Shown: one piece after another, positions 2,631-43,100 of the stretch
Position numbering within the stretch: the first letter of the stretch is position 1
How the letters are laid out: each line of letters opens with the position of its first letter
Source of the DNA: Siphonobacter sp. BAB-5405
GTDB taxonomy: Bacteria; Bacteroidota; Bacteroidia; Cytophagales; Spirosomataceae
DNA: 64,000 bases
Direction of reading: 5' to 3'
NCBI RefSeq assembly: GCF_002872335.1
Contig: NZ_NJAG01000011.1
Location: 186,001 to 250,000, forward strand
Made by a program: the position numbers and the translations under genes
The notes under the pieces: generated by a model
What the model was told of the DNA's origin: nothing
What the model saw: the letters and a program-made list of their open reading frames with translations, nothing else
Databases searched by the model: none

Positions 2631-2644
2631 CTTATTTATTTACT

Positions 2645-2965
2645 ATGCCCCGTTACGAATTCACGGCCTGCACGCCGGTTGATACCCAAGGCTCAGGCAC
2701 ACACTTGATTTTTACCTATAAAAGTCTGTCTGGTGATCCCGGTCATGAACGGAATATTCAGATTATCGATCCAGACCGTTCTACTATGGACGAAGTTCAT
2801 ACGCAACAGCTTTTCACGGAGGTGATTAATTTTATGAAAAATTACTGGGAGAAGAGTATTCAGATTCCCGAGAGTAACTATGAAATTCATCTGAGCGAGA
2901 GTCCGCTTCTGGAAGGAAAAGAAGGTCCTACACCCTGGCAGGGATTTGTGCTGGAATTGGAGTAA
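2645..2965 (+). CDS. Small hypothetical protein
   Basis: 106-residue soluble protein without a signal peptide or membrane segment; mixed alpha/beta composition (start MPRYEFTACTPVDTQ, end GFVLELE). It is close behind the 81-residue gene, suggesting a two-gene unit. I prefer this frame to the overlapping 93-residue minus-strand frame because it is the longer, has a clean ATG and fits the neighbour. No family recognised. Confidence 0.6.
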   Translation: MPRYEFTACTPVDTQGSGTHLIFTYKSLSGDPGHERNIQIIDPDRSTMDEVHTQQLFTEVINFMKNYWEKSIQIPESNYEIHLSESPLLEGKEGPTPWQGFVLELE

Positions 2966-2970
2966 GTATT

Positions 2971-3075
2971 CCATGGGTGGTACCCATGGTTACGGTTATT
3001 GAACCCCTGCGGGGTTGGATCTTACCAACCCGCAGGGGTTCAATGTACATAGCCCCGTATGCAATGCGGGGTAAT
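2971..3075. repeat. Cluster of palindromic (REP-like) repeats
   Basis: Three stem-loops in a row between two genes: arms 2971-2978/2982-2989; arms 2999-3018/3025-3043 (19 pairs with one bulged G, 6-base loop, GC-rich); and a shorter one near 3052-3075 built on CCCCG/CGGGG. The long middle hairpin has no T tract, so it looks more like an interspersed palindromic element than an intrinsic terminator. Confidence 0.6.
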
Positions 3076-3137
3076 TGCGAGTAGATCCCGAATACAGATT
3101 TATATATTCATTACACCTGAAAACGACAAACTAACAA

Positions 3138-3983
3138 CTAAAACGGATTCAGGAAGAACCCTACGCCTACCCAATTGTTGATATGCTGTTCAAACGTACT
3201 ATAGGGTAAGGGTCCATGAAAGGCCTGTACAGCCAGACTTAGTGGATTTCGTTCAATCGCTCCTAATTCAATTCCCACGGCCGCAGTTACACCCGGATGA
3301 AAGTTCGTTTGTTCGATCATCCGAACATCTACGCCCGCCCACCAGCGAAGTTTCTCCCGATTCGGTTGCTTCCAGACGGTACCGATTTGCGTATACAACC
3401 GCTTCCGCTCCGAAGCAGGTCGCAGTCCGACGCCCAGGCCTCCGTACAAGCGTACACTCGTCCACTGATACGCGTACAAAGCATCCACCTGTTCGTAATT
3501 AACGGCATTGGGCAAGAAATAATTGATCTGATTGCGAACCAGATAATCATCACCCAAATGCGACGACAGGTGATAAACCCGGAATCGCCAGCTGGCATTT
3601 CCCCGCTTCAAATTATAAAGCAACCCTACGCGAAAATCGACGTTAAACAGATAGCGTCGGAATTTATCTTCCTGACTATCGTGAAACATTTCAAACTGAG
3701 TATTGGCTACGACATCCAGGGCTAGTTCGGAAGCCCGACGCTCGTCCCGACTCCAGCGGAAAAAGCCTTTCTGAAAACCGATTGAAAAGGGAGCAAACAG
3801 TCCGTCCCTGCTTACGCCATCTTCTGTACGCCGCAATAAGGAGGCACTGGTTTTAGCTTCCAGCGGATCGAGAACGATCGGTTCAAATAAATGGCCCTTG
3901 GGCAGAAATTCCGTTTTGGTTTGAGCCTGAACTCCGGAAATTAGCAGGAAGCCTAGCCCCAGAAGGGTAAAGATCGAACGCAT
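3138..3983 (-). CDS. DUF1207-like outer-membrane/periplasmic protein
   Basis: 281 residues beginning with a signal peptide (cleavage after VQAQ, about residue 21). The mature start contains LPKGHLFEPIVLDPLEA, resembling the conserved opening of DUF1207 proteins, followed by alternating aromatic/polar strands (YNLKRGNASWRFRVYHLSSH) typical of an outer-membrane barrel or beta-rich protein. Function is not known for the family. It lies downstream of the M20 dipeptidase on the same strand but behind a terminator. Family assignment from memory of the motif; moderate confidence. Confidence 0.6.
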   Translation of the reverse strand: MRSIFTLLGLGFLLISGVQAQTKTEFLPKGHLFEPIVLDPLEAKTSASLLRRTEDGVSRDGLFAPFSIGFQKGFFRWSRDERRASELALDVVANTQFEMFHDSQEDKFRRYLFNVDFRVGLLYNLKRGNASWRFRVYHLSSHLGDDYLVRNQINYFLPNAVNYEQVDALYAYQWTSVRLYGGLGVGLRPASERKRLYTQIGTVWKQPNREKLRWWAGVDVRMIEQTNFHPGVTAAVGIELGAIERNPLSLAVQAFHGPLPYSTFEQHINNWVGVGFFLNPF

Positions 3984-3993
3984 GGCGGTATGA

Positions 3994-4029
3994 AAAAACC
4001 GGAGCTTTCTGTGAGAAGCTCCGGTTTTT
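3994..4029 (-). terminator. Terminator of the M20 dipeptidase gene
   Basis: Perfect 14-base arms 3994-4007 and 4016-4029 with an 8-base loop; on the minus strand the stem is followed by a run of T. Located 11 bases beyond the dipeptidase stop. Confidence 0.85.
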
Positions 4030-4039
4030 GAATGAAGTA

Positions 4040-5398
4040 TCAGGATAAAGCCGTGAAGTGTTTGAAGAACAAAGGAATGGTTTCGATTCCCTTATAGAAG
4101 TTGAACAAACCATAGTGCTCGTTGGGCGAGTGAATGGAATCCGAATCCAGACCAAAGCCCATTAATACGGTTTTCAGACCAAGTTCTTTTTCAAACAAAG
4201 CCACAATGGGAATACTACCACCGCCGCGAGTCGGTACGGGTTTCTTGCCAAAACTTTCCGTCAAAGCGGCCTCGGCTGCTTTATACGCCGCCGATTCCAG
4301 GGGCGTCAGGTACGGTTGACCGCCGTGGTGGGGCGTTACCGTCACTTTCACTGACTTGGGAGCAATGCTCTGGAAATGAGCAGCGAACAAATCCGTAATC
4401 TTATTCCAGTCCTGATTAGGCACCAAACGCATGGAAATTTTAGCGTAAGCTTTAGACGGCAGTACCGTTTTTGCTCCCTCGCCAATGTAACCACCCCAAA
4501 TGCCGTTGCAATCGAGCGTCGGACGAATACTGGCCCGCTCCCGGGTTGTAAAGCCAGCTTCTCCCTGTACATCGTCGATCGCCAGATCAGCCTTGTATTC
4601 CTCAAGATTGAACGGAGCCGATTCCAGCATTTCACGCTCTTCCGCCGATAATTCTACGACATCATCATAAAAATTCGGAATCGTGATATGCCCGTTTTCA
4701 TCGTGCAGACTGGCAATCATTTTAGCCAGCGTATTGATCGGGTTCGCTACGGCTCCTCCGTATACCCCTGAGTGGAGGTCACGGTTGGGTCCGGTTACTT
4801 CTACTTCCACGTAGCTCAGTCCACGTAAGCCCGTATCAATCGACGGCGTATCGTTAGAAATCATCGCCGTATCCGAAATCAGAATCACATCAGCCTTGAG
4901 TTTTTCACGGTTCTGGCTAACGAAAGTACCCAGGTTATTGGAGCCAACTTCTTCTTCGCCTTCAATCATGAATTTCACGTTACAGGGCAGCGAGTTCGTC
5001 GCCATCATGGCTTCAAACGCTTTCACGTGCATGAAAAACTGGCCTTTATCATCGGCTGAACCCCGGGCATAAATTTTCTCGTCTTTGATGACGGGTTCAA
5101 ACGGTGGTGACGTCCAAAGTTCCAGCGGATCGGCTGGCTGAACGTCGTAGTGACCGTAAATCAGTACCGTTGGTTTACCCGGATCAACGATCTTTTCTCC
5201 GTACACAATCGGATGGCCGGCGGTTTCGTGCAGCTCGGCTACATCCGCTCCGGCTTTGGCTAAACTTTCCCGAACGTATTCGGCAGCCTGTCGTACATCA
5301 CCTTTGAATTTTGAATCTGCACTAACGGAAGGGATGCGTAACAATTCCAGCAGTTCTTCGAGAAAGCGGCCCTTATTAGCCTCTAAGTAATCTTGCAT
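4040..5398 (-). CDS. M20-family metallopeptidase (dipeptidase)
   Basis: 452 residues from the ATG at 5398 (MQDYLEANKGRFLEELLELL); the frame extends to 5458 but the added residues are not family-like. Two-zinc peptidase of the M20 carnosinase/CNDP-like branch, cytoplasmic (no signal). Visible metal and catalytic motifs in order: GHYDVQP (His ligand and catalytic Asp region), RGSADDKGQ (bridging Asp), EGEEEVGS (general-base Glu and ligand Glu), DLHSGVYGG at the lid domain, and a late GLDSDSIHSPNEH with the last His ligand. Expected to hydrolyse dipeptides or short peptides. Own terminator. Confidence 0.92.
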   Translation of the reverse strand: MQDYLEANKGRFLEELLELLRIPSVSADSKFKGDVRQAAEYVRESLAKAGADVAELHETAGHPIVYGEKIVDPGKPTVLIYGHYDVQPADPLELWTSPPFEPVIKDEKIYARGSADDKGQFFMHVKAFEAMMATNSLPCNVKFMIEGEEEVGSNNLGTFVSQNREKLKADVILISDTAMISNDTPSIDTGLRGLSYVEVEVTGPNRDLHSGVYGGAVANPINTLAKMIASLHDENGHITIPNFYDDVVELSAEEREMLESAPFNLEEYKADLAIDDVQGEAGFTTRERASIRPTLDCNGIWGGYIGEGAKTVLPSKAYAKISMRLVPNQDWNKITDLFAAHFQSIAPKSVKVTVTPHHGGQPYLTPLESAAYKAAEAALTESFGKKPVPTRGGGSIPIVALFEKELGLKTVLMGFGLDSDSIHSPNEHYGLFNFYKGIETIPLFFKHFTALS

Positions 5399-30302: not shown

Positions 30303-31106
30303 TTATAATTTTCCCTGCCAGGTGGTAAGCTGTGGAAACAGAGCCTCTGGTACTTCTCCTTCAAAAATCCCGTACACGGTCGAACCTGATCCCGACATAC
30401 TGGCATAAGCCGCCCCGGCTTCGTAAAGCTGGCGTTTGATCTGAGCGAGCTGGGGATACTTGGGAAATAACGACTGCTCAAAATCATTCGTTATGGATGC
30501 TTGCCAGGTATGAAGGGGTTGTTGTAATACCTGCGTCCATTGAGCCTGAGCCGCCCGTGGACGAATGCCCGCGTATGCTTCGGCAGTTGAGCTATGGAGG
30601 TCTGGGTAAACCAATAGAATCGACTTTCCAGCTAAATTAAGCATGATTTCTGAAAACTCATCGCCTTTTCCAACGCAGAATTTTGCTTCGTTCTGAATAA
30701 AGAAGGCACAATCACTGCCCAGCGGCCGAGCGTACGCTTCGAGGGCTTCCGTACTGAGCTTCAGATCAAAAAGCGTATTAAGTACTTTCAGCGTAAACGC
30801 AGCGTCGGAAGAGCCACCTCCGAGTCCGGCCCCGATGGGTACTACTTTATGCAGGTGAATTCGTACGGGAGGCAGATCGAAATCCTTTCGCAGCTGTTCA
30901 TAGGCCCGTAAACACAGGTTGGTTGAAGTTTCACCTGGAATCGGCAAACCCGTACTGCGAAAGCTTGTTTCGGAAGCGGGCAGAATTTCGAGTACGTCAC
31001 TCCAGCCTACGGGTACAAACACGGACTCCAGGTTGTGGTACCCGTCCGAGCGTTTTTCGGTAATGTATAAGCCAAGGTTAATTTTGGCGTTGGGAAAAGC
31101 AACCAT
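30303..31106 (-). CDS. ispE: 4-diphosphocytidyl-2-C-methyl-D-erythritol kinase
   Basis: 267-residue GHMP kinase of the non-mevalonate isoprenoid pathway. Motif 1 FPNAKINLGLYIT with RSDGYHNLESVF (substrate site), ATP-binding motif PIGAGLGGGSSDAA at about 91-104 and motif 3 ASMSGSGSTVYGIF near 240 are all intact. Length is normal. The gene begins 22 bases after the 41-residue lipoprotein gene that ends the 31-42 kb cluster, so this essential enzyme probably shares its transcript at least in part. Confidence 0.95.
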   Translation of the reverse strand: MVAFPNAKINLGLYITEKRSDGYHNLESVFVPVGWSDVLEILPASETSFRSTGLPIPGETSTNLCLRAYEQLRKDFDLPPVRIHLHKVVPIGAGLGGGSSDAAFTLKVLNTLFDLKLSTEALEAYARPLGSDCAFFIQNEAKFCVGKGDEFSEIMLNLAGKSILLVYPDLHSSTAEAYAGIRPRAAQAQWTQVLQQPLHTWQASITNDFEQSLFPKYPQLAQIKRQLYEAGAAYASMSGSGSTVYGIFEGEVPEALFPQLTTWQGKL

Positions 31107-31128: not shown

Positions 31129-31254
31129 CTAGGGTCTCGGTTCTTCGGCTACGCGAACCGTATCTCGGTCGTGACGGCGATTGCCACTTTTGGAACAACC
31201 GGCACAACTCATCAGCCCCAGGCCGAGTAAGAGCAGTAAACAATAAAATTTCAT
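31129..31254 (-). CDS. 41-residue lipoprotein at the end of the stator/cytoskeletal cluster
   Basis: The minus-strand frame from the ATG at 31254 encodes a signal peptide MKFYCLLLLLGLGLMSC with lipobox LMSC, followed by a 24-residue charged tail (CAGCSKSGNRRHDRDTVRV...). The start codon overlaps the stop of the OmpA-like gene as ATGA, indicating translational coupling. A canonical lipobox in so short a frame plus coupling makes it a convincing small gene; its role is unknown, possibly a lipid-anchored accessory peptide of the complex. Confidence 0.65.
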   Translation of the reverse strand: MKFYCLLLLLGLGLMSCAGCSKSGNRRHDRDTVRVAEEPRP

Positions 31255-31895
31255 AGCGATTTACCCACTTTTGAAGTGATCTGTATGGTAAACCGGCGAT
31301 TGGCGTTTTCGTTCCGGGGATCGCGTGATTTCCCAAAATGGCCACTCCCTACAATCAGGACTTCACAATTCTTGAACTGATCGAAGTTGATGCCATTTTG
31401 CTTCCAGAAATCCACCAGAGCCAGGGCCCGGCGATAACTGAGTTCGTACCCATTCTGACGCCCGAAACTGCTCTGCCAGTTGTCATTCGCTCGTTGGGCA
31501 TTGCCTTCTACCACAACCATATAACTGACATCCGGGTTTTCTTTGGCTACGTTCTTGATTTTTCGGAATAGTACCTTGCCCGCTTCGAGTAAGCCATTGC
31601 GGGTGCGGGCGTCGAGTTCGCTCATATCGGCCCGGTTGGGTTTAAAATTAACGTCCACCCCCAATCGAAACCGTTTGTTGTTTTCATCATAGCGAAAATA
31701 GGTTCCGTTTAACTCCTGCAACGCCCGCTCGATGGTCTGAATTTTCTGGTATTTCAGGGCATCGTTGATATACCCCTCCTCTTTTGACTTTAGAATAGCG
31801 ACCGTCAGTACATACAGCACCAGCATGACGAAAAACAGACTCGTCATGAGATCGGTATAACTCGGCCAGAAAAAATCGGTATGTCTGGTTTTCAA
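31251..31895 (-). CDS. MotB/ZorB-like OmpA-family protein with proton-channel helix
   Basis: 214 residues. Short cytoplasmic N-terminus, then one membrane helix at about 14-34 (TDLMTSLFFVMLVLYVLTV) whose Asp15 aligns with the ion-binding aspartate of MotB/ExbD/ZorB. A linker follows, then an OmpA-type peptidoglycan-binding domain from about 78 (DVNFKPNRADMSELDARTR; YMVVVEGNAQR; ELSYRRALALVDFWKQNGI; NRRFTIQI at the end). Together with the next upstream gene it forms a stator-like pair: an ion channel anchored to the cell wall. Stop overlaps the small lipoprotein start. Confidence 0.8.
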   Translation of the reverse strand: MKTRHTDFFWPSYTDLMTSLFFVMLVLYVLTVAILKSKEEGYINDALKYQKIQTIERALQELNGTYFRYDENNKRFRLGVDVNFKPNRADMSELDARTRNGLLEAGKVLFRKIKNVAKENPDVSYMVVVEGNAQRANDNWQSSFGRQNGYELSYRRALALVDFWKQNGINFDQFKNCEVLIVGSGHFGKSRDPRNENANRRFTIQITSKVGKSL

Positions 31896-31931
31896 TGATT
31901 TGATTGACTAATAGCGTTAAGAATCCGCTCG

Positions 31932-31977
31932 CCCCGATTTGTAATCGGGGTGGAGAATGGTTTCGCGTCTAAGACGC
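31932..31977. repeat. Palindromic element between the two stator genes
   Basis: Two stem-loops in the 135-base gap: CCCCGATT (31932-31939)/AATCGGGG (31943-31950), and GCGTCT (31965-31970)/AGACGC (31972-31977). A diverged further copy of the first motif lies near 31990-32025. No T tract, so they look REP-like or act as mRNA hairpins. Confidence 0.5.
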
Positions 31978-32030
31978 TTGACCAAAACGCCCCGATCATT
32001 CCATGATGGTTATAAATCGGGATGAGCTGG

Positions 32031-33626
32031 CTAACTCTTTGTTGAGAACATGCGGCTCCAGGCTCCTTTTTCCATCCGCTTCACCATGCGTTCGATGAGT
32101 TGCAGGGTCTGGCCCTGCTGACGGCCTAAGGCTTCGAGTTGCTGACGAATCTGCTCCTGCCGCTGGGCGTTTTCTTTCTGGTACACCTCGGCATTGCGTT
32201 CGAGCAGTTCCAGGTAATCGAGCTTGCTCAGTTTATCGCGGTTTTGGGTGAAGTACTGATCCGTCGCGTTGATTTCCCGAATCTTGATGTCTTCGATGCT
32301 CTTCAACTGATCGTGGATGGTACGATCCAGTGCTCGTAGACTTTGATCGATCAAGTCATCGTACTGCCCTACTTTATTGTTGAAAGCCTGCCCATGCTGA
32401 TCGAGTTGCTTGAAATGGCTCGTCAGGTATAGATACAGATCCTGCGACTGCTGGAGGCTTTTGGAAATCTGTACGGAAATGTCTTCGACGTTCTGCGTAC
32501 GTTCGACGATTTTCTGCGTATTATCCACCAATCCATTCAGCTGATTGAGGTAATACCCGAATTTCTCCAACGAATCCAGACTACTATCCAACTGACTCAG
32601 CACCTGAATATTAAAGCTGGCGACTCGATTCAGATCTACTTTTTGCAGGGTATCCAGGGCTTTCTGCTGGGCCATCAATGACGCGTGATTTTTATCCACC
32701 ATGCCACTCAGTTCCTGCACATTGTCCCGAAAGGTGGTACTGAAGTCCTGAATACTCCGGTTAAGCGTCGCAAAGATGCCCGCGTTTACGCCTTCGGAAA
32801 GAATGGGTAATAACTCCGTTTGCAGGAAAGAGAAAAAGCCCTGTTTACGGCTCTCCAAGGTAGCTTTGGCATTGCGGAACGTCCAGGAATTAAGTACCGT
32901 CAGCAGCAGACCCGCTAAACTCGCCAACATGGCAATTTTCACGCCGCCAATGAGGTTATTAACACCTTCGCCCTGTAAAAAGCTGGCCGACCCTACGGCT
33001 GGCATGGCAAACAGACCGATCACAATACCCGCCATGGTACCCATCAGACCCAGGTACAGGGGAATGGGCATGGTCAGATTAATGCCTTCTTCTTCCGCAT
33101 CCAGATTCCGTTCAGTAATGTCGCGTAACAAATTAAAATCCGCCAACGAGGTACGATTGCGGATCAGGTAGGTATTGATGCTTTCAAGAATTTTGCCGAT
33201 GCCCTCGGTTTTATCCGTCGAGACAATCAGAGGCAACTCCAGCGTTTCGCGACCCGGATTCATGGTTTTGAAATTCCAGAGGTCCTGGCGTATCTGCTGT
33301 AACTCCGCCTCTGCTTCCGCCCGCATGACCTCGTGGAGCTCTTTGGAAAGGAGTACGACCAGTTGATCTTCCCGACGGGTCAATTCTTCGAGTTGCAGAT
33401 CGTTTACGTGCGTACGTTGCGAAAGACTCTCAATCTGTTTGAGTACTTCGGCGGTGGACAACTGTTCCAGATCCTGCCGCAGTATCCGGTACCTCCGAAG
33501 GCTAAAGACGGAACCTTCAGGAATTAATTCGCGAAATCGACTAATTCTACCCCGTGTATCCAGCCATACCCAGCCCTGAGCTACCAGAATTCCGAGGATA
33601 ATGACGATTTCTATTAGTTGGGTCAT
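32031..33626 (-). CDS. MotA/TolQ/ZorA-like channel protein with long coiled-coil tail
   Basis: 531 residues. First membrane helix at about 3-21, a mostly helical cytoplasmic part to about 185, second helix 188-211 (PLYLGLMGTMAGIVIGLFAMP, the GLxGTxxGI signature of MotA/ExbB/TolQ) and third helix 229-250 (VKIAMLASLAGLLLTVLNSWTF). From about 255 to the end the protein is a long coiled coil rich in Leu, Gln and Asp (RSIQDFSTTFRDNVQELSG, QTLQLIERMVKRM). That plan, a MotA core plus an intracellular coiled-coil tail, resembles ZorA of Zorya defence. It precedes the MotB-like partner. Confidence 0.75.
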   Translation of the reverse strand: MTQLIEIVIILGILVAQGWVWLDTRGRISRFRELIPEGSVFSLRRYRILRQDLEQLSTAEVLKQIESLSQRTHVNDLQLEELTRREDQLVVLLSKELHEVMRAEAEAELQQIRQDLWNFKTMNPGRETLELPLIVSTDKTEGIGKILESINTYLIRNRTSLADFNLLRDITERNLDAEEEGINLTMPIPLYLGLMGTMAGIVIGLFAMPAVGSASFLQGEGVNNLIGGVKIAMLASLAGLLLTVLNSWTFRNAKATLESRKQGFFSFLQTELLPILSEGVNAGIFATLNRSIQDFSTTFRDNVQELSGMVDKNHASLMAQQKALDTLQKVDLNRVASFNIQVLSQLDSSLDSLEKFGYYLNQLNGLVDNTQKIVERTQNVEDISVQISKSLQQSQDLYLYLTSHFKQLDQHGQAFNNKVGQYDDLIDQSLRALDRTIHDQLKSIEDIKIREINATDQYFTQNRDKLSKLDYLELLERNAEVYQKENAQRQEQIRQQLEALGRQQGQTLQLIERMVKRMEKGAWSRMFSTKS

Positions 33627-33652
33627 GTGGGATTTTCGTTTGATACTTAGGC

Positions 33653-33706
33653 TTTGGGGTAGTTACGTGTAGGCACCCGAAGGTACTGACACGTAACTAC
33701 CCCAAA
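33653..33706. repeat. Perfect 18-base inverted repeat between cluster genes
   Basis: Arms 33653-33670 and 33689-33706 with an 18-base loop, filling most of the 92-base gap. It would form a strong RNA hairpin between two coding regions; without a T tract it may stabilise or process the mRNA, or be an interspersed repeat. Confidence 0.6.
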
Positions 33707-33718
33707 CCCTCATCGCTT

Positions 33719-35017
33719 TTAATTTTCGAATCGAATGATTGCCTTGTATTGCAACTCCCACCGATCCGAATCTACACTGGCTTTGGCTAGTTTCCCTTTG
33801 GCAACGGTGATAATCCGGCGGGCTCCGTACTCAATGCCTCCGCCGTAATCACACACCGGATCGAGGAAGGTTTCCGGATACCGCAGGGCTTCGCTAACCA
33901 AACCCGGATCATCCACAAATTCAAATTCCGCATCCAGCGGGCCCGTCAGACGTACCTGATACAGCGACTGGGAAGGATCAAACTGTGCTCCTCGAATATC
34001 CCGGAACGAGCCATCTTTGTTGGGCGTCGACAGATAGAATACCTCAAGTCCGCCCATAGTTACCGGAGCTGGAATCGCCGCAGGTTCCGGCATCGGTTCG
34101 GGCTCTTCGGGAGCCAGAGCAACGGGGGGTTGAGGCGGCTGGGGAGGCACCACTACAGGTTCGGGTTCTTTTACCAGCTCCGGTTCCTTCGCCGCTGCCG
34201 CCTGTAAACTCTGCATGTCCTGTAACCAGCGGTTCCGTTCGTTTTCGTTCTTCTGTTGAGCGTCTTTCAGAGCCTTGTCGTACTCTTTCAGTGCTTTCTC
34301 GTATTCTTTGATTTTTTCAATCAACTGCGGTACCTGCTTTTCAAGCTGTTGCATTTTGATGTAACTCTGGCTCGCCTGACTCGAAGTATTCAGCATTTGC
34401 CGGTCAATTCGTTCCCGTTTCTTTTTCTCGTCCAGGTACAAATAACCCAGCCCGGCAGCGGCGAGTACGCTTATTCCCGAAATGATCCACCAAATCCAGG
34501 GTGAATCACCTGATTTATTCGGCAAAACCGGAACGCCATCGAGGGCTTCCCGAGCTACTGTATCGGGCATTACTTCCGTACCATCGGCTACGGTTGTATC
34601 GCCGCTGTCGATGATTTCGGATTCCGTAATTTCAGTCCGCAGGTTCGTTACAAAACTGCCCAGAGCTACCCGGGTTTTCAGGATCGACACCTTCTCACCC
34701 GTTTTTGGATCGGGTTCTTTCAGATTCTCCAGTTCCGTAAGAATCTTATTGACTTTCGTCTTGTCCTGGTCGGTCAGCGGTCGGCTCAGATACGGCTCCA
34801 GTTGACGCAACACTACCGCCACACTGGGCGTAGCCTTGTTGTCCAGGAAAAAATCCATCAATTTTTTAAAGAAATCAGCGTAGGTAGCTTTGGTATTCAC
34901 ACCGCCAGCTTCCTGAAACGTACTCTCTTTACGGGCCAAAGCCGTTTGGGCAAATCCGGAAACCGTCCAGAACAGGCACAAAACAAGAATGATGACTCGA
35001 CGCATACGAAGATTCAA
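33719..35017 (-). CDS. Membrane-anchored coiled-coil, proline-rich protein of the cluster
   Basis: 432 residues. Signal peptide ending SGFAQ (about 24), a helical region to about 110 (LEPYLSRPLTDQDKTKVNKIL), a membrane helix at about 173-192 (PWIWWIISGISVLAAAGLGYLYL), then KKKRERIDR and a coiled coil to about 270, a proline/glutamate-rich spacer at about 288-322 (VVVPPQPPQPPVALAP) and a C-terminal beta-rich domain of about 105 residues. Periplasmic N-terminus with cytoplasmic coiled coil is the natural topology, making it a transmembrane connector. No known family recognised. Confidence 0.65.
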   Translation of the reverse strand: MNLRMRRVIILVLCLFWTVSGFAQTALARKESTFQEAGGVNTKATYADFFKKLMDFFLDNKATPSVAVVLRQLEPYLSRPLTDQDKTKVNKILTELENLKEPDPKTGEKVSILKTRVALGSFVTNLRTEITESEIIDSGDTTVADGTEVMPDTVAREALDGVPVLPNKSGDSPWIWWIISGISVLAAAGLGYLYLDEKKKRERIDRQMLNTSSQASQSYIKMQQLEKQVPQLIEKIKEYEKALKEYDKALKDAQQKNENERNRWLQDMQSLQAAAAKEPELVKEPEPVVVPPQPPQPPVALAPEEPEPMPEPAAIPAPVTMGGLEVFYLSTPNKDGSFRDIRGAQFDPSQSLYQVRLTGPLDAEFEFVDDPGLVSEALRYPETFLDPVCDYGGGIEYGARRIITVAKGKLAKASVDSDRWELQYKAIIRFEN

Positions 35018-35076
35018 GGTTGGTTAAAACGCGGACCCTACTACGGGCCCGCGTCGATAAAAATTTCCAAACGGCT

Positions 35077-38000
35077 CTAACTGGCCGCTTCCCAGGCTAA
35101 CTGATTTAAAGCTCCCAGCAGAGGATAGAAAAAGAGTGTTTCTTCAACCGGACTGTTCAGGTTTTCGAGTGATTCCCGACGCATTTCCCAACCACTGTAC
35201 ACATTTTGTAGTAGGTTTCGCAGCAGAATGTTCTTGTACTGATCCAGTCGGCCCTCGTTCACACCGAACTTTCCACTGAACGAAATCTCCAGACTAAAGA
35301 GCATATCCACAAACGCTTTCACTTCATCGGCTACGCCCTGCAGTACCTCCCCGTCAATGTGCTGATACGTATCGCCACGTACCACGATACGATCTTCCTT
35401 CGTACCCAGCAAAACGGTTTTGATCCGGTCCATCTGGGCTTCCAGTGTGCCGTCGTCTTCACGGGAGAAGTTCAGTCCGGGCATTTTCAAACCACCCTTA
35501 CAAGTCGATTCCTTGGGCGAATTGCGTTCACGTACAATGTCGAGTCCGTCGGCGTGGTAAGGAGCCTCGTATACCTTTTCGAAAATCAGCTTGGCCAGAT
35601 CGGCCAGAGCCACGTTTCGGGGTGTCAGAATGTCGAGCAATTTAGAACCCGTTCCACTGAAGGCAATATATCGGGGCATCTTCTTGTCTTTCGCCTTCAT
35701 CAAACGGGCCAAGTGGTAGATTTGAGCCGTATAGAATACCAGCGGAACAATTTTGAGATCGGAGTCATTGGCGAGCCGGTCGTTGAAATCGTAGGCCGCT
35801 TTTTCCCGTAAATCCAGGTTGTTTTTCAGCGAGAAATAGAACGCTACAATATCTTCCGAACGGTTGTTCGCCTTGATCGACTCGTAAGCCCGGTGCAGGT
35901 TACTGAAATTAGCCGACAGGTGCGAGCTTACTTCCGGATCGTATTTCTTGACGAAGCCATTACGGGCCGCTGCTCCGTCCCGGGCGAAGCCATCGCCGAA
36001 TACGGCATTACCGGCAAAACGCACGGAAGTCAGCATATTCGGCTGGTTTCCTTCAAAAATAACGATGTCGGACGTGCCTCCCCCAATATCAATCAGAGCC
36101 GTCGGGTAAATGTTGGAATCAATGGGCTGACTACTACCACCTCCCCGACTATACCAGTAGAAAGGGGCAATACTTTCAGGGACTTTCCGGGGCATCCGCT
36201 CGCGACTGATGGTTTCGGCGTAAAGCTTGTTCCAGAGTCCTTCGAAGTAATTCCGCTGGTTTTCAACCATACTCAGGGGGTAAAACCAGAGTAATTCGGT
36301 ATGAGCCAGGTTCCCGCCATTGATGAGTACTTTATTCCGGATCAATAGCAACAGCGACTGCAGGAAGCCTTCAATCCGCTTCTGAGCCTTGATATTTTTA
36401 CTGAAATCGGACCACTTCAGATTCGTTGAAATGGTATAGTCATCCTTGGGAATATTCCGCTTTTCGTACAGGAATCCAATATTAAAGTCCCCGAAGCCGA
36501 ACAGATTTTCACCCGAAAAATTAGGCCGGTTTTCGATCAGAGCCGTCCGCTGCGGAAACTTGCAGAGATACGCTTCACCCAGGTGTTCGGGCATCATTTC
36601 CTGCGGTACCAGTTCGGCAATGGGTATGGCTCGCGTACCGTTGAATGACCCATCCCGCTCGGGGAAAGTGGGGTCATGCAGGGTCGCGATCTGTACATCG
36701 TCGTCGATGGTAAAGGGCCGCGGTTGCCGATCGTCGGAGGTGGTAAACTCCACGTGCGTATTGGTGGTACCGAAATCGACGGCGAAGGTAAAAACCGTAT
36801 CCTTCATTTCGCGTACTTCGAACTTCGGTAAAATGACGCCGCGATGACCCGCCACTTCAACCGTAATTCGCTCGAAATCAGCCTCCACAACGTGAACCTC
36901 TGACTTAGCACCCGTACCAATATCTTTCTGACTCCGCGGACGAACCCGGTTGTCAGGCACGGGAATAAGCTGGTTATTCTGATCGAAGAAACTGAGTTTG
37001 TATTCGTTCTTGAATGTCTGAGCCGACACGTCCCGATCCACCAGATGCACCCGGTACATGGGTTTGAAATTAGCCAGCGGCGGACGTTTCATCTTGACGA
37101 AGGGGAATACCGTCATGCCAAACTGATGTTCCGCAATGACGCCTTCGTTTTTCTCCTCGTTGGGCGATTTGGTCGGATCATCGTAGTACATCCGGGAGAG
37201 CTTCAGCGTCCGGCCCGTGGGTACTACTTTTTGCTGAGCAACGTCCCATTTTCCCAGCGGAATCTGTAAGGTCACGCGAACCGAACCGCCCGCCCGTTCT
37301 TCCATCTGAATGTTGACTTCCCCACCCCGCATCAGATCCTGAGCGGAGAAAAACTCGAAGAAATCCGATTTCAGCGGTAACAGGTAGCTCTTTTGTACAT
37401 TCCGCAAACCACCGTCAAAGTACCGTTGGGAATGAATGGGGTAGACCAGCCGAATCAAATGCGGTTCCAGGAAATCGCTGGTCGTCAGGTAGGGATAAAA
37501 ATCCGCCTGACCGGGCAGTTGCCGCTGGTTGGTACGCCAGTCTTCGGACACAAAATGCTTTACGTCAATCGTGTCCCGCCAGGGAATCCGCGTGTACGGA
37601 ATGGGCTCGAAGAAATCCCTGGACAGAATCATGGGGGCCGGTTTCCCCGTGTAGCGTTGTTTTTTAACGCCGTACTCATCCAGCTCTTCGGTCGGACTAA
37701 TCAGGAAATGACTCAGGCCCTGAATGACTTCCGGTCCCGACGCTGCTTTCCGCATTTTGAAGGCGGGTCCCTGTCCCGTGGAAGCAAATTCGACGGTGTA
37801 GTTGGTATCGAATTCCAGCTCCGGAAAATCGGCATTCCAGGCTTCTTCCCGCAGGTTTTGGCCATTGGATCCGATTCGTTGCCAGGTGTCATAATTTCGG
37901 GCATGCAGTAGCTCCAGACTGCGGCTGAGATACTCGGAAACTTCAGGGTACAATTCCCGGAAACCCGGCATAAAACGCTTCAATCCGTGCCAGAATACCT

Positions 38001-38640
38001 GGTACTCAATGTCGCGTTCGTGCAGGGGTACGGGATTATTCCGGTCAAATACGCGGTGATTTCCGAAGTGAATATCCACGAAATCCAGAGCGTTCGGAGC
38101 CGTAAAAAACAGCGTAGCGGGCGAAGTGCCTCCAATCACGCCCGTTCCTTCACGACTTTGGTAATGCAGAATAAACAGCTTACGCAAGCCGCCGAAGTTG
38201 TAGCTGGCGGCGTCTTCGCGAAGGTACAGATCCAGGGCACTGCCCAGACGCTGGTGGTTACGCGAGCCGTTTTGCAACGTACGCAGAGCCTGTTCCCGAT
38301 CCCAGGTAATGATTCGGACCGGGCCACGGGGCGACTTGAATTTATCGTAATTGAAGAAGATTTCACCCACGTCGAAACAGGCCGAAACCAGCCGTTCGTC
38401 GTTCAAGGATCCTTTCAGGTCACTGCGTAAAATCAGATTACGGAAAGCAGATTTCACCAGATCAAATCGGGCAAACGGACTGGGAATGGACGTCGGATCT
38501 TTCTCCGTATCCCCTTTGGCCTTGTCCTGAATCGCCTCGATCAGATCGGTAGTATAGGGTTGCGAAGTAAACCAATGCCCATCAACCGAAGCCGAGCGGT
38601 CGTGCAGGTTTAGTTCGCGTTTTAATGACTGGTCTGACAT
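35077..38640 (-). CDS. Giant actin/Hsp70-superfamily ATPase with novel N-terminal region
   Basis: 1187 residues, no signal or membrane helix. The C-terminal half carries the actin/Hsp70 ATPase signatures: phosphate 1 loop DFGTTNTH at 622-629, phosphate 2 loop DIGGGTSD at 851-858 and adenosine loop FSGTGSK at 994-1000. The first 610 residues match nothing I know; they contain repeated aromatic, beta-rich stretches (e.g. LFILHYQSREGTGVIGG at 155). Much larger than DnaK (about 640) or MreB (about 345). Predicted cytoplasmic ATPase or filament of the cluster; 59 bases separate it from the next gene. Confidence 0.75.
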   Translation of the reverse strand: MSDQSLKRELNLHDRSASVDGHWFTSQPYTTDLIEAIQDKAKGDTEKDPTSIPSPFARFDLVKSAFRNLILRSDLKGSLNDERLVSACFDVGEIFFNYDKFKSPRGPVRIITWDREQALRTLQNGSRNHQRLGSALDLYLREDAASYNFGGLRKLFILHYQSREGTGVIGGTSPATLFFTAPNALDFVDIHFGNHRVFDRNNPVPLHERDIEYQVFWHGLKRFMPGFRELYPEVSEYLSRSLELLHARNYDTWQRIGSNGQNLREEAWNADFPELEFDTNYTVEFASTGQGPAFKMRKAASGPEVIQGLSHFLISPTEELDEYGVKKQRYTGKPAPMILSRDFFEPIPYTRIPWRDTIDVKHFVSEDWRTNQRQLPGQADFYPYLTTSDFLEPHLIRLVYPIHSQRYFDGGLRNVQKSYLLPLKSDFFEFFSAQDLMRGGEVNIQMEERAGGSVRVTLQIPLGKWDVAQQKVVPTGRTLKLSRMYYDDPTKSPNEEKNEGVIAEHQFGMTVFPFVKMKRPPLANFKPMYRVHLVDRDVSAQTFKNEYKLSFFDQNNQLIPVPDNRVRPRSQKDIGTGAKSEVHVVEADFERITVEVAGHRGVILPKFEVREMKDTVFTFAVDFGTTNTHVEFTTSDDRQPRPFTIDDDVQIATLHDPTFPERDGSFNGTRAIPIAELVPQEMMPEHLGEAYLCKFPQRTALIENRPNFSGENLFGFGDFNIGFLYEKRNIPKDDYTISTNLKWSDFSKNIKAQKRIEGFLQSLLLLIRNKVLINGGNLAHTELLWFYPLSMVENQRNYFEGLWNKLYAETISRERMPRKVPESIAPFYWYSRGGGSSQPIDSNIYPTALIDIGGGTSDIVIFEGNQPNMLTSVRFAGNAVFGDGFARDGAAARNGFVKKYDPEVSSHLSANFSNLHRAYESIKANNRSEDIVAFYFSLKNNLDLREKAAYDFNDRLANDSDLKIVPLVFYTAQIYHLARLMKAKDKKMPRYIAFSGTGSKLLDILTPRNVALADLAKLIFEKVYEAPYHADGLDIVRERNSPKESTCKGGLKMPGLNFSREDDGTLEAQMDRIKTVLLGTKEDRIVVRGDTYQHIDGEVLQGVADEVKAFVDMLFSLEISFSGKFGVNEGRLDQYKNILLRNLLQNVYSGWEMRRESLENLNSPVEETLFFYPLLGALNQLAWEAAS

Positions 38641-38727
38641 AAGTTCAATGAATGAAGGAGTCCATGAAAAGAGCTGATACCCGGTTCATGGCTCCGTAGG
38701 GTTCCAATGAATGAAAGCGATGCCTTC

Positions 38728-40266
38728 TTAGCTTCCGGACAGCTGCGAATATTCCTTTTGCAGGAATTGATCCGTACAGGTATTCATTAGCGTCAGGAAT
38801 TTGTCTTCCGGCGTAACGTAGGTTTTGCCCTTGGATTCCGCATTGAGGTATTCATCGAATTCCCCTTTGTTCATCTCGATTTCTACGTCTACGGTTTTCC
38901 CAAAGAAGTTTTTCTTGGTTCGCTCGAAACCGGGAATAAACTTCCCTAAATCTTCCGTCGCCAGATTGAAGGGGCGGAAGGTGCGTTTATTGAAGACGTT
39001 CCGGTCGTGATCGTTCATCTCCAGCAGCCAGGTACGGAAGTTCTCGTTGAAGTCGTGCAGATTCCGGTAGAACTTCGTCTGACGAAAATCCGAACCAATT
39101 TTGGGAGCTTCCTTACTAGTCCAGGGAGCACTGTTGCTGCCCAGAATACCATCGCGTTCCACCCGGGTTTTCAGGTATTGGCTCAGAATGCCGAACTGAC
39201 TCAGTGGTCGGGCGATGACCTGCCGCGTACGATCCACAAAATCCGCGAAATTCAGTCGGTTATTGCTCGTGCCCAAACCAAACTCCGAGTAGCGTGGATT
39301 GCGGGCAATGATTTGGCCGTCGCGTACCGTGCACTCTAGCTCGCTGGCATGTTCGCAGAAGTCTACGACCGACAGGGCCCCTACCATTTCGATGTAGTGA
39401 GCATCGTTTTGTTGCCCACCCGCTCCGGGATCGTACTCGTACGGACTCCGGTAGCTTTCGGCCAGGTAATACAGGGCGTTAAGCTTGGGATATTCTTTGT
39501 TGGAAAGGCTGTTCTGATAATAACCCAGAGCCGCTTTTGTCTTGGAAATAAAGGTAGCGTTATCGATGGCTTTGTCCTGAGCACCAGCCGAGTATACATC
39601 GAAGTACGGCTGAACCGACACGGCTCCGATCCGGGCTTCGCGAACGTCTTTGGCATCCGAGCCGCCGTACCCACGGATATTCTTGAGAATCAGCGGAAAA
39701 CCAGCGGCTCCGGTTCCTCCAAAAATGGAACTGACAATGAATACCTTATCTTCTCTCTTGAACGAGCTGACAAAGGCTTTGAACTCTTCCGATTCCCGGA
39801 ATTGGTTCAGTACGACCGAACCAATATTTGGATTCCCCACAAAACCAATATCCATTTTGGTATCCAGCTGTTCTTTGGAAAACAACAGATCAGCCAGGGC
39901 ATGATTGGATTCATCCAGCGAGTCATGGCCGATGTAATTGCCGTATTTTTCGTCGCTTACGCCCTTGAGTTCGTACTGGAACGAATCCGCAATGGAGGCA
40001 CTGGGCAACTGACGTTTCAGGGTTTGAATGTCAGTACCAAACAGTCCCGACGAAGGCGGATTTTGCAGCGAAGACCGTACGTTCTGGTATTGATTCAGAA
40101 TTTCCTTGGTTCGCTTCAGGTCTTTATTTTCCGCGTGGGGATCCATCAGAATGGGGATCACCTGCGTAGTATTACGGAGCTTAACGCCCGAAGCCAGTAG
40201 ATACGTCAGCGACTTTACCACCCGGGCTCCGGTACCTCCAATCGCAAACAAAAAGAGTCGAGACAT
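38728..40266 (-). CDS. Tubulin/FtsZ-superfamily protein of the cluster
   Basis: 512 residues, cytoplasmic. The N-terminus FLFAIGGTGARVVKSL (residues 5-20) fits the first nucleotide loop of a Rossmann-like GTPase. FIVSSIFGGTGAAGFPLIL has GGTGAAG at 183-189, the tubulin/FtsZ phosphate-binding signature GGTG[SA]G. Spacing between the two (about 170 residues) is longer than in FtsZ (about 90), with an acidic helical insertion between. The C-terminal third is unassigned. Represents a divergent 'tubulin-like' family; whether it polymerises is unknown. Confidence 0.75.
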   Translation of the reverse strand: MSRLFLFAIGGTGARVVKSLTYLLASGVKLRNTTQVIPILMDPHAENKDLKRTKEILNQYQNVRSSLQNPPSSGLFGTDIQTLKRQLPSASIADSFQYELKGVSDEKYGNYIGHDSLDESNHALADLLFSKEQLDTKMDIGFVGNPNIGSVVLNQFRESEEFKAFVSSFKREDKVFIVSSIFGGTGAAGFPLILKNIRGYGGSDAKDVREARIGAVSVQPYFDVYSAGAQDKAIDNATFISKTKAALGYYQNSLSNKEYPKLNALYYLAESYRSPYEYDPGAGGQQNDAHYIEMVGALSVVDFCEHASELECTVRDGQIIARNPRYSEFGLGTSNNRLNFADFVDRTRQVIARPLSQFGILSQYLKTRVERDGILGSNSAPWTSKEAPKIGSDFRQTKFYRNLHDFNENFRTWLLEMNDHDRNVFNKRTFRPFNLATEDLGKFIPGFERTKKNFFGKTVDVEIEMNKGEFDEYLNAESKGKTYVTPEDKFLTLMNTCTDQFLQKEYSQLSGS

Positions 40267-40268
40267 GG

Positions 40269-40380
40269 GAGTTTTCAGTTTTCAGTTTTGAGTTTTCAGC
40301 GGCCGCCGCTGCGGTTTAGAGTTTTCAATGATTCTACGATGCAAGAGTCGACCACTGAAAACAGAAAACCGACAACAGTA
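40269..40380. repeat. Short tandem-like AGTTTTC repeats between cluster genes
   Basis: Four near-copies of (C/G)AGTTTT(C/G) in tandem at about 40269-40300 and one at about 40319, a GC-rich hairpin AGCGG-CCG-CCGCT beside them, and the inverted form CTGAAAACAGAAAAC near 40355-40369. The arms can pair, giving a long-range stem. Noncoding; likely an interspersed repeat. Confidence 0.45.
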
Positions 40381-40386
40381 AACTGA

Positions 40387-40812
40387 TCAAAATGGAATTT
40401 TCCGGTTGTTGGTACTTACGTTTTTTACAACCAGCGATAGTACAAAAAAGAGAATAGCCGCCAGTATCAGCATTTCGAAGCCAAAGCCGAAGAAGATACT
40501 GCCGCCCTGATCAAAAAACCGACCCTGCTCGGGGTGTCCCTTCCGGCGGGGAATTTCCTGAGCCGCCTTTTGCGAACAGGTCACAATAGCGACGATCATG
40601 GTCAGTACGGCACTGCTACCCAGTACGGCCAGCCAGGTAGAGGCTTTGGCGTAACGTACTTTGTTCATCCCGAAATAATATATCGCTACTCCTACCAGTA
40701 CAAAGACCAGCATGGTGAGCGTCAGGGAGGTCAGCAGCGTTTCGTCGTATAAATCATTGAGCAGGGAGTTCTCAACAAAGAGAGCGTAAAAGTCGTACAG
40801 TAGATTTTCCAT
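40387..40812 (-). CDS. Three-helix membrane protein of the cluster
   Basis: 141 residues with three membrane helices at about 28-48 (LTSLTLTMLVFVLVGVAIYYF), 60-83 (WLAVLGSSAVLTMIVAIVTC) and 107-128 (FGFGFEMLILAAILFFVLSLVV). Its ATG overlaps the stop of the vWA-like lipoprotein gene (TAATG), so the two are coupled. No recognised family; predicted inner-membrane subunit of the machine. Confidence 0.65.
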   Translation of the reverse strand: MENLLYDFYALFVENSLLNDLYDETLLTSLTLTMLVFVLVGVAIYYFGMNKVRYAKASTWLAVLGSSAVLTMIVAIVTCSQKAAQEIPRRKGHPEQGRFFDQGGSIFFGFGFEMLILAAILFFVLSLVVKNVSTNNRKIPF

Positions 40813-42143
40813 TAATTATTCAAAGTAAGGCTGATTGTAAAATAGGTGTCGGCGTTTTGGGGATTGTACGCTTTTTCAATACCCCGGGTAAAGTTGAGCA
40901 AACCGAACGTGGTTTCCGCAAAGGCATCGGCATTCGGGTTACTATCATCCTGCGTATGCGTTTGCGTAATCCAGCGGGGCGGGAATTTACGTTTGAGTCG
41001 AATGTTAATTTCACGTTTTCCCCCACCCTGCGGTTCTGGCGTAGTGAGCAAAAACTTGTGGGTATAGCCCTCCGGCCCTTTCTCCGCTACAATTTTCTGG
41101 ATTTTAAAGCCTTCGTCCGATTCAATCTCGTAGGATTTGGGATCGGCCTTGTAGGATTCCGGCAGATAAAAACCGCCCAGATCGACGCCCAGAGCAATGG
41201 TCAGCCCCCGCGTTTTGCGGTCGGCCTTAATATTTTCGAGCGTATGCACGATGTTGGAGCGTTCCTTGCGTTCCTGACGACTTTGCTCAAATTGCCCGGC
41301 CTGTTCGGCGTCTTTTAATAACACCGTATAAAATGGAAGGTTATCGGTGGCACTGGTAAAATAATGGAAAGAGTCGAAGCCCGGCAATTCAGAGAAGCGA
41401 GAAAGCGACTCAAATTTAGGATCTGCCAGCAGAGCTTTCATCGTGGCGTTCGTAGCCATCAGGGCAATGTAATACGGCCGCGAACCACTGTAGGGTTTAC
41501 CTCCGCCGTTGTGGGGATAGTACGTACCCTTGAACTGACCATTGAGTTTCAGCAGCAAAAGCGACTTTCCTTTGGTCTGCGGAGCAAAGGTCGTTTGCAT
41601 GAGTGTTTCTACATCCGCCAGAATTTTCGTTGCCGACTGGGCGGTCGTTGATTCCGTCGAGTAGATCAGGTCCGAAAACAGGACGCCTACCTCTCCTTCT
41701 TTCAGGTCGGAAAGAATCGTTTTAAAAATAAGGCTGAAATCAGTGTGTTTGGAGTCGCCTTTCCCTTTGGTTAGCGTGAAAATATTGGGTTGTTCCACCA
41801 ACTGCTGGAAACTCACCCCCATCGGATACACGTTATCATTGACAACGAACAATTCCGTCGAACCCGACTTCTGGGTTTCAAATTCCGTCAGCAGTTTCTG
41901 GAGAGCTTCGTCAAATTCTCCCGTACTCCCCGCCGCATCGTAGGGAAACATACTGCCACTGGCTTCCAGATAAAGCTTGGCTTTGAGGTTTTTAGGAGAT
42001 AGAATTATCTCCTTCGGAGGGGGGACTACTTCCACACTATCAATATGCTGATCAGGGCCTTTGCCAGGGCCACATTGTATCAGCAACAAACATAATATGG
42101 TTGCTAAAGCATAATAATAGGTTCGAGACCAGAATATGTACAT
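40812..42143 (-). CDS. vWA-like lipoprotein, first gene of the cluster
   Basis: 443 residues. The N-terminus YALATILCLLLIQC has a lipoprotein-like signal with Cys24, though Gln before the Cys is unusual. Residues about 55-240 read as a von Willebrand A fold: strand then EASGS at 60-64 in place of the DxSxS metal motif, ELFVVNDNVYPM, HTDFSLIF with the MIDAS Thr134, and GVLFSDLIYS with Asp158. A beta-rich C-terminal domain follows. Metal-dependent ligand binding in the periplasm is plausible. First in the operon, coupled to the membrane protein behind it. Confidence 0.65.
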   Translation of the reverse strand: MYIFWSRTYYYALATILCLLLIQCGPGKGPDQHIDSVEVVPPPKEIILSPKNLKAKLYLEASGSMFPYDAAGSTGEFDEALQKLLTEFETQKSGSTELFVVNDNVYPMGVSFQQLVEQPNIFTLTKGKGDSKHTDFSLIFKTILSDLKEGEVGVLFSDLIYSTESTTAQSATKILADVETLMQTTFAPQTKGKSLLLLKLNGQFKGTYYPHNGGGKPYSGSRPYYIALMATNATMKALLADPKFESLSRFSELPGFDSFHYFTSATDNLPFYTVLLKDAEQAGQFEQSRQERKERSNIVHTLENIKADRKTRGLTIALGVDLGGFYLPESYKADPKSYEIESDEGFKIQKIVAEKGPEGYTHKFLLTTPEPQGGGKREINIRLKRKFPPRWITQTHTQDDSNPNADAFAETTFGLLNFTRGIEKAYNPQNADTYFTISLTLNN

Positions 42144-42527: not shown

Positions 42528-43100
42528 ATGAAAAAAGTACTTTTCAGTCTATGCTTCCTAACCTTCAGCATGGCCGGAGCCTTTGCTCAACAAAATACCG
42601 TGCTGGTGTACGGGACGCTAGGTTTAGAATCTCAGAAATTAAGTGGGTCGAGTGCGAAATCGAATACGTTCAACTTTAGTCCTGCCGTGGGTTACCAATG
42701 GGATGACCACTGGACGGGTGGTCTGGTCTTAGGCACGAGTTCTACGAAATCAACCACTGCCAGTGGAGCGGATCTGAAAACTTCTCAATTCACCGTAGGT
42801 CCGTTTGTCCGTTATGCCTGGGCTTTGTCGGACATCTTCGCTGTGTATGGTCAATTCAATGCTACTTACCTCTCCGGAAAGCAGGATGCGGATACTCGCT
42901 ACAACGGCTTTCAGGGCGTATTCTTTCCGGCGATCGGCGTGAACATGAAAAATGGATTCGCCCTGAACTTTGGTTTTGGGAACCTGAGCTACAGTACGGC
43001 CAAGGTTAAAAACTCGTCCAGCAACCTGAATGATTTTAAACTAACCTTTGGAGATGGCGTAAACTTTGGCATCTCCAAAAACTTTGGTTTGAAAAAGTAG
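42528..43100 (+). CDS. Outer-membrane beta-barrel protein (porin-like family)
   Basis: 190 residues: signal peptide ending GAFAQ (about 21), then alternating hydrophobic/polar strands with many Gly and aromatic residues (YGTLGLESQKL, AVGYQWDDHWTGGLVLG, VGPFVRYAWALSDIFAVYGQFNATYLSG, FALNFGFGNLSYS), ending in GISKNFGLKK. Size and pattern fit an eight-stranded OmpX/OmpA-like barrel common in Bacteroidota. Divergent from the 31-42 kb cluster; a functional link is not shown. Confidence 0.8.
   Translation: MKKVLFSLCFLTFSMAGAFAQQNTVLVYGTLGLESQKLSGSSAKSNTFNFSPAVGYQWDDHWTGGLVLGTSSTKSTTASGADLKTSQFTVGPFVRYAWALSDIFAVYGQFNATYLSGKQDADTRYNGFQGVFFPAIGVNMKNGFALNFGFGNLSYSTAKVKNSSSNLNDFKLTFGDGVNFGISKNFGLKK

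Follow-up and report, generated by a model that had tools for sequence, protein, structure and literature searches.

A conserved cluster of tubulin-like and actin-like genes with an optional ZorAB-like motor pair in Siphonobacter and other bacteria

The 64,000-nucleotide stretch of Siphonobacter sp. BAB-5405 (Cytophagales) analysed here (the window; contig NZ_NJAG01000011.1, positions 186,001 to 250,000, from a genome of 246 contigs and 6.49 Mb in total) contains a cluster of eight open reading frames (ORFs), A to H, all on the minus strand at positions 31129-42143. The cluster encodes a tubulin-like protein (C), a giant actin-like protein (D), putative membrane and lipoprotein partners (A, B, and E), and a predicted ion-channel pair, or stator (F and G). 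Its gene content, gene order, and sequence motifs are conserved in related loci, and the stator is present in some loci and absent from others. We propose that the cluster encodes a trans-envelope nucleoside triphosphatase (NTPase) machine that often includes an ion motor and serves to remodel or repair the envelope, and we put the probability of this reading at about one in two. The ORFs, with the evidence on which each description is based, are as follows.

40812..42143, minus strand: A, vWA-like lipoprotein, 443 amino acids (invariant lipobox, Foldseek)
40387..40812, minus strand: B, small membrane protein, 141 amino acids, three hydrophobic segments (hydropathy, adjacency to C)
38728..40266, minus strand: C, tubulin-like protein, 512 amino acids (Pfam Tubulin and Tubulin_2 in relatives, GGTG loops)
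35077..38640, minus strand: D, giant actin-like protein, 1187 amino acids (invariant motifs, PDB profile matches, hhalign)
33719..35005, minus strand: E, bitopic coiled-coil-like protein, 428 amino acids (hydropathy, conserved C-terminal domain)
32031..33626, minus strand: F, MotA/ExbB/ZorA-type channel protein with three transmembrane segments and a long coiled-coil-like tail, 531 amino acids (Pfam, PDB)
31251..31895, minus strand: G, partner with one transmembrane segment, a membrane aspartate, and an OmpA-like wall domain, 214 amino acids, TTG start (PADLOC ZorB, PDB)
31129..31254, minus strand: H, lipoprotein stub, 41 amino acids (full-length relatives with an aspartyl-protease domain)

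This layout, including the TAATG overlap of A and B at 40812 and the ATGA overlap of G and H at 31251-31254, is as given in an initial annotation that a model made from the sequence. The remaining gaps were described there as short, which is fair, although at 71 to 135 bp (B-C, 120; C-D, 87; D-E, 71; E-F, 92; F-G, 135) the genes are not tightly coupled throughout.

Gene order is conserved across related loci

Homologues of these genes, which the initial annotation had treated as one cluster, co-occur in conserved order at other loci. Order was counted over 59 of 65 loci, six (L010, L011, L108, L115, L118, and L119) having been dropped as duplicates or as holding FtsA only, and two genes were called adjacent when they lay on the same strand with −200 to 600 bases between their stop-to-stop frames. 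The loci were selected for C or D, so the presence of these two is given by construction, whereas that of A, B, E, F, and G is not, and related genomes are not independent. By this measure A-B were adjacent in 39 of 40 cases, B-C in 40 of 40, C-D in 42 of 47, D-E in 30 of 38, E-F in 23 of 24, and F-G in 21 of 24, several of the exceptions being gene-model or contig-end effects. The order A-B-C-D-E, with or without F-G, recurs within Cytophagales and beyond, and its conservation rules out chance clustering.

A real split was seen in one genome (G004, loci L059 and L136), where A-B-C and D-E-F lie ~235 kb apart on one chromosome; a second genome of the same genus (G055) has the cluster in one piece.

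C and D retain tubulin-family and actin-superfamily NTPase motifs

Relatives of D (25 rows), C (23), A (22), F (16), and G (14) were aligned, each alignment drawing on a subset of the loci. All 23 relatives of C matched Pfam Tubulin and 21 matched Tubulin_2 (E value ≤ 0.1), and residues G10-G13, R15, F182-G186, and G189 are invariant in 23/23. With cyanobacteria included, T12 and R15 deviate in three cyanobacterial rows and the NTPase motifs are otherwise largely retained. C of the window is 88-92% identical to C in four named or metagenomic Siphonobacter loci.

In D, all three actin-superfamily motifs (phosphate-1, phosphate-2, and adenosine) are present, and residues D622, F623, G624, T625, N627, D851-G855, D858, F994, G996, and G998 are invariant in 25/25 relatives. 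Those relatives matched a spread of Pfam families at an E value ≤ 0.1 (FtsA, 13; EutA, 11; Ppx-GppA, 9; MreB, 6; SrfB, 1), and the D profile matched MreB, actin, FtsA, and Hsp70 chains in the PDB (best E value, 2.4e-4). A single hhalign comparison of D with FtsA gave a probability of 96.7% (E value, 3.3e-10); unrelated control pairs in the profile comparison reached 0.1% (D-FtsZ) and 0.2% (C-FtsA). On its motifs, D is thus a probable member of the actin superfamily. These ATPase motifs start near residue 620, and no family assignment was obtained for the N-terminal ~600 amino acids. C lacks a hydrophobic segment in 46 of 60 gene models, as does D in 45 of 56.

F and G form an optional ZorAB-like motor module

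The channel protein F has three hydrophobic segments in the window copy and in 22 of 30 gene models. Residues G193, L194, T197, M233, S236, G239, and T243 are invariant in 16/16 relatives, and G196 and G200 are conserved in at least 90%. MotA_ExbB was matched by 8 of the 16 (E value ≤ 0.1); F of the window itself matches neither this Pfam family nor PADLOC ZorA. Against the PDB, F matched ZorA (E value, 0.0016) and TolQ (0.015). Its tail matches coiled-coil and designed helical chains, the best of which score above ZorA, so we counted only the channel part as evidence.

The membrane aspartate of G, D15, is invariant in 14/14 relatives. G matched PADLOC ZorB with an E value of 5.6e-10, and its three best PDB sequences all come from ZorAB entries (8vvn, 1e-8; 8qyd, 1.7e-5; 8vvi, 0.017). 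8VVN is a type I ZorAB and 8VVI a type II (PMC11890865). The sequence in 8QYD recurs in 8QYH and 8QYY, two entries in which chain A bears the title ZorA. The score against NCBIfam ZorB1 is only 18.1 bits, for a cut-off of 400. For the OmpA-type wall anchor proposed in the initial annotation, the OmpA domain match is weak and under the Pfam cut-off (19.4 versus 27.2 bits). By sequence, then, F and G appear to resemble ZorA and ZorB most closely. The channel signatures noticed at the outset, like those of tubulin and actin, are real and conserved in the relatives of the respective proteins.

The motor is an optional module, and the core exists without it. In a tree of D (47 rows), from which L048, L051, L069, L112, L136, and L137 (contig ends or split genes) and loci lacking a D frame of 800 residues were also left out, F and G are both present in 23 rows, both missing from 21, and represented by one of the two in 3, a pattern that requires at least six changes. 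Closely related genera differ in this respect (L055 versus L056-L058). In genome-wide searches with the F profile, three genomes that have F-G at the locus each gave a single copy, and all 11 tested genomes whose locus is without F gave none. Thus, in the genomes tested, the motor belongs to the cluster wherever it is present. A stator supplied from another locus when the local one is missing was ruled out by the same search, as none was found in the 11 genomes. The initial annotation had suggested an envelope machine driven by ion-motive force; since the stator is optional, ion-motor power cannot be its universal principle, and the ion-driven machine is a putative one.

A, B, and E are putative envelope partners and H is a stub

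The lipobox cysteine of A, C24, is invariant in 22/22 relatives. For the vWA-like fold that had been suggested for A, the leading Foldseek matches are mostly vWA/integrin I domains (E values, ~1e-3 to 4e-2), but the structure model is modest (mean predicted local distance difference test [pLDDT] score, 53.8), none of 1364 Foldseek matches has an E value below 0.001, and neither the window copy nor any other of the 22 members searched has a Pfam match. The domain carries EASGSM where DxSxS is usual. B has three hydrophobic segments in 38 of 41 gene models. E of the window has a signal-like segment (residues 1-19), a central hydrophobic segment (171-189), and a coiled-coil-like part, and its C-terminal domain is conserved in most E matches.

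Four loci (L052, L070, L071, and L072) hold two to four proteins with the C-terminal domain of E in place of F-G, and in these D is separated from the best E match by a second gene. E may therefore serve as an output or adaptor that diversifies.

H had been counted as a full eighth gene, a view that we do not uphold: in all five Siphonobacter loci examined it is a stub (41 amino acids in the window and 36-39 in the other four). Relatives of 190-207 amino acids occur downstream of G or E in five loci, with a shorter one in a sixth (L055-L058, L061, and L123), and the three tested all carry a retropepsin-like (gag-type) aspartyl-protease domain (PF13975; E values, 3.4e-17 to 4.3e-17). The only PF13975 match in the window's genome lies elsewhere and is below the cut-off. 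To judge from these sequences, H is a remnant of an aspartyl-protease lipoprotein of which the lipoprotein start alone has been retained in Siphonobacter.

The cluster is patchily distributed and rarely carried by mobile elements

Within the order, D was found in 37 of 194 genomes and 16 of 94 genera (window protein as query; E value ≤ 0.001) and C in 47 of 194 genomes and 20 of 94 genera (12-row profile; E value ≤ 1e-10). When the lists were compared by hand, all 37 D-positive genomes were also C-positive. Across the phylum, C was found in 13 of 395 genomes, with D at the same locus in 12 of the 13, one of these being cut by a contig end. The sole exception, G569 (L123), is a metagenome-assembled genome with 13% contamination in which A, B, C, F, and G are present, C contains a stop, and D was not seen. 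The D profile gave matches in 353 of the 395 genomes; among the matches listed, those in all but eleven genomes are short and weak. All six genomes listed for Siphonobacter hold C, and no member of the genus stands among the listed genomes that lack a match.

A second, weaker type of C occurs in 10 genomes of the order, for which nine loci were examined (G082 was left out). D was seen in three of them (L128, L129, and L131) and adjoins C only in L128; in the other six (L127, L130, and L132-L135) it was not detectable. The midpoint-rooted D tree places cyanobacteria, second-type Bacteroidota, L113, L114, and L122 on one side and the main group, including the window, on the other; the tree has many long branches, which leave the finer placements uncertain.

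Only 6 of 72,556 plasmid records hold the cluster. Five are cyanobacterial records with C, four of which were examined: three (L107-L109) have the order A, small gene, C, D, and one (L106), in which A is inverted, has its own ParA and ParB genes. In addition, one Prevotella replicon of 1.77 Mb, filed as a plasmid, holds A-B-C-D-E. D was found in none of 50,697 phage records, and a pattern scan of 2.9 million viral contigs returned three. This rarity in plasmid, phage, and viral sequences rules out a mobile or phage cassette as the general rule.

Comparison with described systems

No operon joining a tubulin-like, an actin-like, and a ZorAB-like component was found described in searches of the open-licence PMC literature. 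Within those searches no characterised system was found to match the cluster. The combination named in the initial annotation (FtsZl1/vWA elements, a ZorAB-like pair, and a giant actin-like protein in one cluster) is supported. The cluster resembles two predicted groups of systems without having all the features of either. FtsZl1 (Tubulin_2)/vWA systems, predicted to act in membrane remodelling by Makarova and Koonin in 2010 (PMC2875224), have an operon for a divergent FtsZ-like protein, a vWA protein, and membrane proteins, to which C, A, and the putative membrane partners of the cluster may correspond; some include OmpA-family proteins, and the species include a Bacteroides and several cyanobacteria. 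A P-loop GTPase or Ser/Thr kinase is frequent there, though not universal, whereas no such Pfam match was found in the window's eight proteins; the accessible text of that article names no actin-like or MotA-like partner, and C of the window lies just under the Tubulin_2 cut-off. D could be among the lineage-specific families A1-A2/B1-B9 of PMC2875224.

The second group, which the initial annotation did not name, comprises the related GAP1-N2 systems, GTPase-tubulin-vWA assemblages predicted to act in biological conflict (Kaur et al. 2020, PMC7159879). These include tubulin-domain and vWA proteins at the membrane and a separate subset with Hsp70-type (actin-superfamily) proteins. However, the tubulin and Hsp70 themes are called non-overlapping there, the systems are centred on a TRAFAC GTPase and GAP1, and the word MotA is absent from the accessible text of PMC7159879. 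No GTPase was matched at a meaningful score among the window's eight proteins (Pfam and NCBIfam).

In Zorya, a channel protein with a long cytoplasmic tail is paired with a wall-binding partner (PMC11890865); in the cluster, F may be such a channel protein, and G supplies a ZorB-type wall-anchored partner. In place of Zorya effectors, however, the cluster has tubulin-like, actin-like, and vWA-like proteins: PADLOC found no ZorC, ZorD, ZorE, ZorF, or ZorG among the window's eight proteins, and because no Zorya effector was found we do not regard the cluster as Zorya. It also differs from flagellar MotAB, in that MotA has four transmembrane segments and F of the window three hydrophobic segments. 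In TolQ/vWA force transducers, which also occur in Bacteroidetes, a vWA protein is likewise tied to a proton-channel motor (PMC12204202); there the vWA protein is tethered in the inner membrane, whereas here it is a lipoprotein, and the accessible text of that article does not contain the word tubulin.

Genes neighbouring the cluster at other loci

Several accessory genes adjoin the core elsewhere, and some of them are of envelope type: the L,D-transpeptidase of L111, the OmpA and TerD proteins of L114, and the aspartyl-protease lipoproteins. Directly after A-B-C-D-E in L111 (12710-14610) lie a protein with a weak SH3 match (below the cut-off) and a YkuD L,D-transpeptidase (E value, 9.4e-22). 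WG-repeat proteins lie after the core in L055 (just under the cut-off), L056, and L074. In L114 (G371:C4:130500-150400), TerD proteins and an OmpA-domain protein follow C-D and a gene of 482 amino acids (1490-4563, minus strand). One TerD protein was tested singly (1.4e-70) and two others are alike by eye, and three TerD members were counted among 70; a link between the cluster and the ter stress system is possible.

On the IMG/VR contigs L117 (13495-15936) and L118, A-B-C-D-F-G is directly followed by genes for a DUF4357 protein and then for an Endonuclease_NS protein whose N-terminal part has a hydrophobic segment; a 4-bp overlap and a 12-bp gap join the two genes to the cluster. A third IMG/VR contig, L116 (815-15275), has A-B-C-D-E beside opposite-strand phage-tail-like genes and an adenine methylase (read by eye); the cluster there may be prophage cargo or mark a prophage boundary.

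The ZorD profile matched 3 of 115 neighbouring proteins, which we interpret as products of the SNF2 genes that lie upstream of A in L049, L068, and L125; like genes occur in L051 and L124. SNF2 proteins with similar scores occur in 21/21 genomes searched, including two (G010 and G073) in which C was not found. Thus, SNF2 beside five loci is a mere housekeeping neighbour, and a ZorD link was rejected.

Proposed mechanism and alternative explanations

From these data we infer the localisation of the proteins, their assembly into a complex, polymerisation, coupling, and the task of the cluster, in the following model. C and D would act as a pair in the cytoplasm, at the inner membrane, assembling under nucleotide control and tethered there by B, through its three transmembrane segments, and by E, with a signal-like segment, periplasmic part, one transmembrane segment, and cytoplasmic coiled coil. 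A, which probably binds a ligand, would form the end in the periplasm or at the outer membrane. An F/G channel would be added in about half of loci, the window's included, with a 5:2 stoichiometry by analogy with ZorAB and with G anchored to peptidoglycan; ion flow would turn or flex the long cytoplasmic tail of F, which would act on the C/D/E assembly. The likely task would be to remodel, reinforce, or repair the wall and the outer membrane where these are damaged or stressed, phage entry being one possible trigger. The simplest reading of the topology of A, B, F, G, and the window's E, taken with the invariant residues of the NTPases and the channel, is a machine that crosses the envelope and has its NTPases in the cytoplasm.

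Several observations weigh against this proposal. C of the window scores 26.3 bits against Pfam Tubulin_2, just below the cut-off of 27.0, and profile comparison of C with FtsZ aligned the signature loop at weak probabilities of 4% (E value, 0.01) and 2%. The structure model of D (pLDDT, 38) is too poor for use, so only its ATPase part is backed, by sequence. Among 38 gene models of E, two hydrophobic segments are found in 12, one in 21, and none in 5. C without detectable D, in the second-type loci and L123, means that the C-D pair is not universal, and the absence of the stator from 21 of 47 tree rows means that coupling to the core is not obligatory. The closest solved relatives of F and G are defence proteins, and the patchy distribution over Bacteroidota is a pattern also typical of defence. 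Among the neighbours, the MATE transporter and RmuC that follow the cluster in L105 are not envelope-specific, those in L070 have no Pfam match, and the accessory genes, each found in one or few loci, may be chance neighbours.

An anti-phage (conflict) system, in which the ZorAB-like pair would sense the envelope perturbation caused by phage injection and the C/D NTPases would assemble at the site to contain the phage or kill the cell, is a possible but doubtful alternative. The nearest matches of G and F are ZorB and ZorA, tubulin, vWA, and GTPase systems have been predicted to be conflict systems (PMC7159879), and the scatter of C (47/194 in the order, 13/395 in the phylum), the TerD genes of L114, the L116 cassette beside genes read by eye as phage-tail-like, and the Endonuclease_NS protein downstream in L117 and L118 are all in keeping with such a role. 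Yet the window's eight proteins matched no effector or nuclease family, the SNF2 helicase adjoining five loci is housekeeping (21/21 genomes alike), the TerD and nuclease associations are single cases, C is in all six listed Siphonobacter genomes, and the cluster is rare among plasmid, phage, and viral records. Envelope-type neighbours, genus-wide presence, and rarity on plasmids and phages thus favour a resident envelope task over a travelling defence cassette; the two roles would be compatible if damage to the envelope is what the machine reacts to.

We consider it unlikely that the cluster encodes a surface-motility or adhesion machine whose ion motor moves surface proteins via A. The motor pair and a lipoprotein are present, and force transduction, perhaps in gliding, has been proposed for vWA proteins that are linked to TolQ-like motors (PMC12204202), but those proteins are membrane tethered whereas A is a lipoprotein, and many genomes hold the core without the motor. 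More improbable still is a DNA- or plasmid-positioning system of the ParM or TubZ kind that came to work at the membrane: although an actin-like and a tubulin-like protein occur together and the cyanobacterial copies are plasmid-borne, the membrane and lipoprotein partners are conserved, Bacteroidota copies are not on plasmids according to their records (except for the Prevotella replicon), and the L106 plasmid already has ParA and ParB genes.

If the envelope-machine reading is correct, a tubulin-family and an actin-family protein would work as a pair from one bacterial operon that is conserved from Bacteroidota to cyanobacteria and, in many lineages, has a dedicated ion motor. The 2010 prediction of FtsZ-like membrane remodelling would then have a concrete target open to genetic study, the cluster would suggest that ZorAB-type motors are used outside Zorya, and the related genera with and without the motor would serve as natural experiments. 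That it represents a novel class, in which a ZorAB-type ion motor acts on a two-component tubulin/actin cytoskeleton from one operon and thereby on the wall and outer membrane, is a more tentative suggestion.

Other features of the locus

Upstream of the cluster lies a divergent plus-strand gene (42528-43100). The downstream neighbour (30303-31106), 22 bp past H, is a gene that we take to be ispE-like from its sequence. Two co-directional genes of similar size lie downstream of the cluster in four other Siphonobacter loci, and their recurrence there suggests that the site is fixed within the genus. A promoter and terminator scan found no excess compared with shuffled sequences. In the analysis of nonsynonymous to synonymous substitution rates (dN/dS), synonymous sites were saturated in six of seven genes. 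The E-F gap contains a 29-nucleotide inverted repeat (33649-33710; 86% complementary, with a 4-nucleotide loop), possibly an attenuator or a small repeat element.

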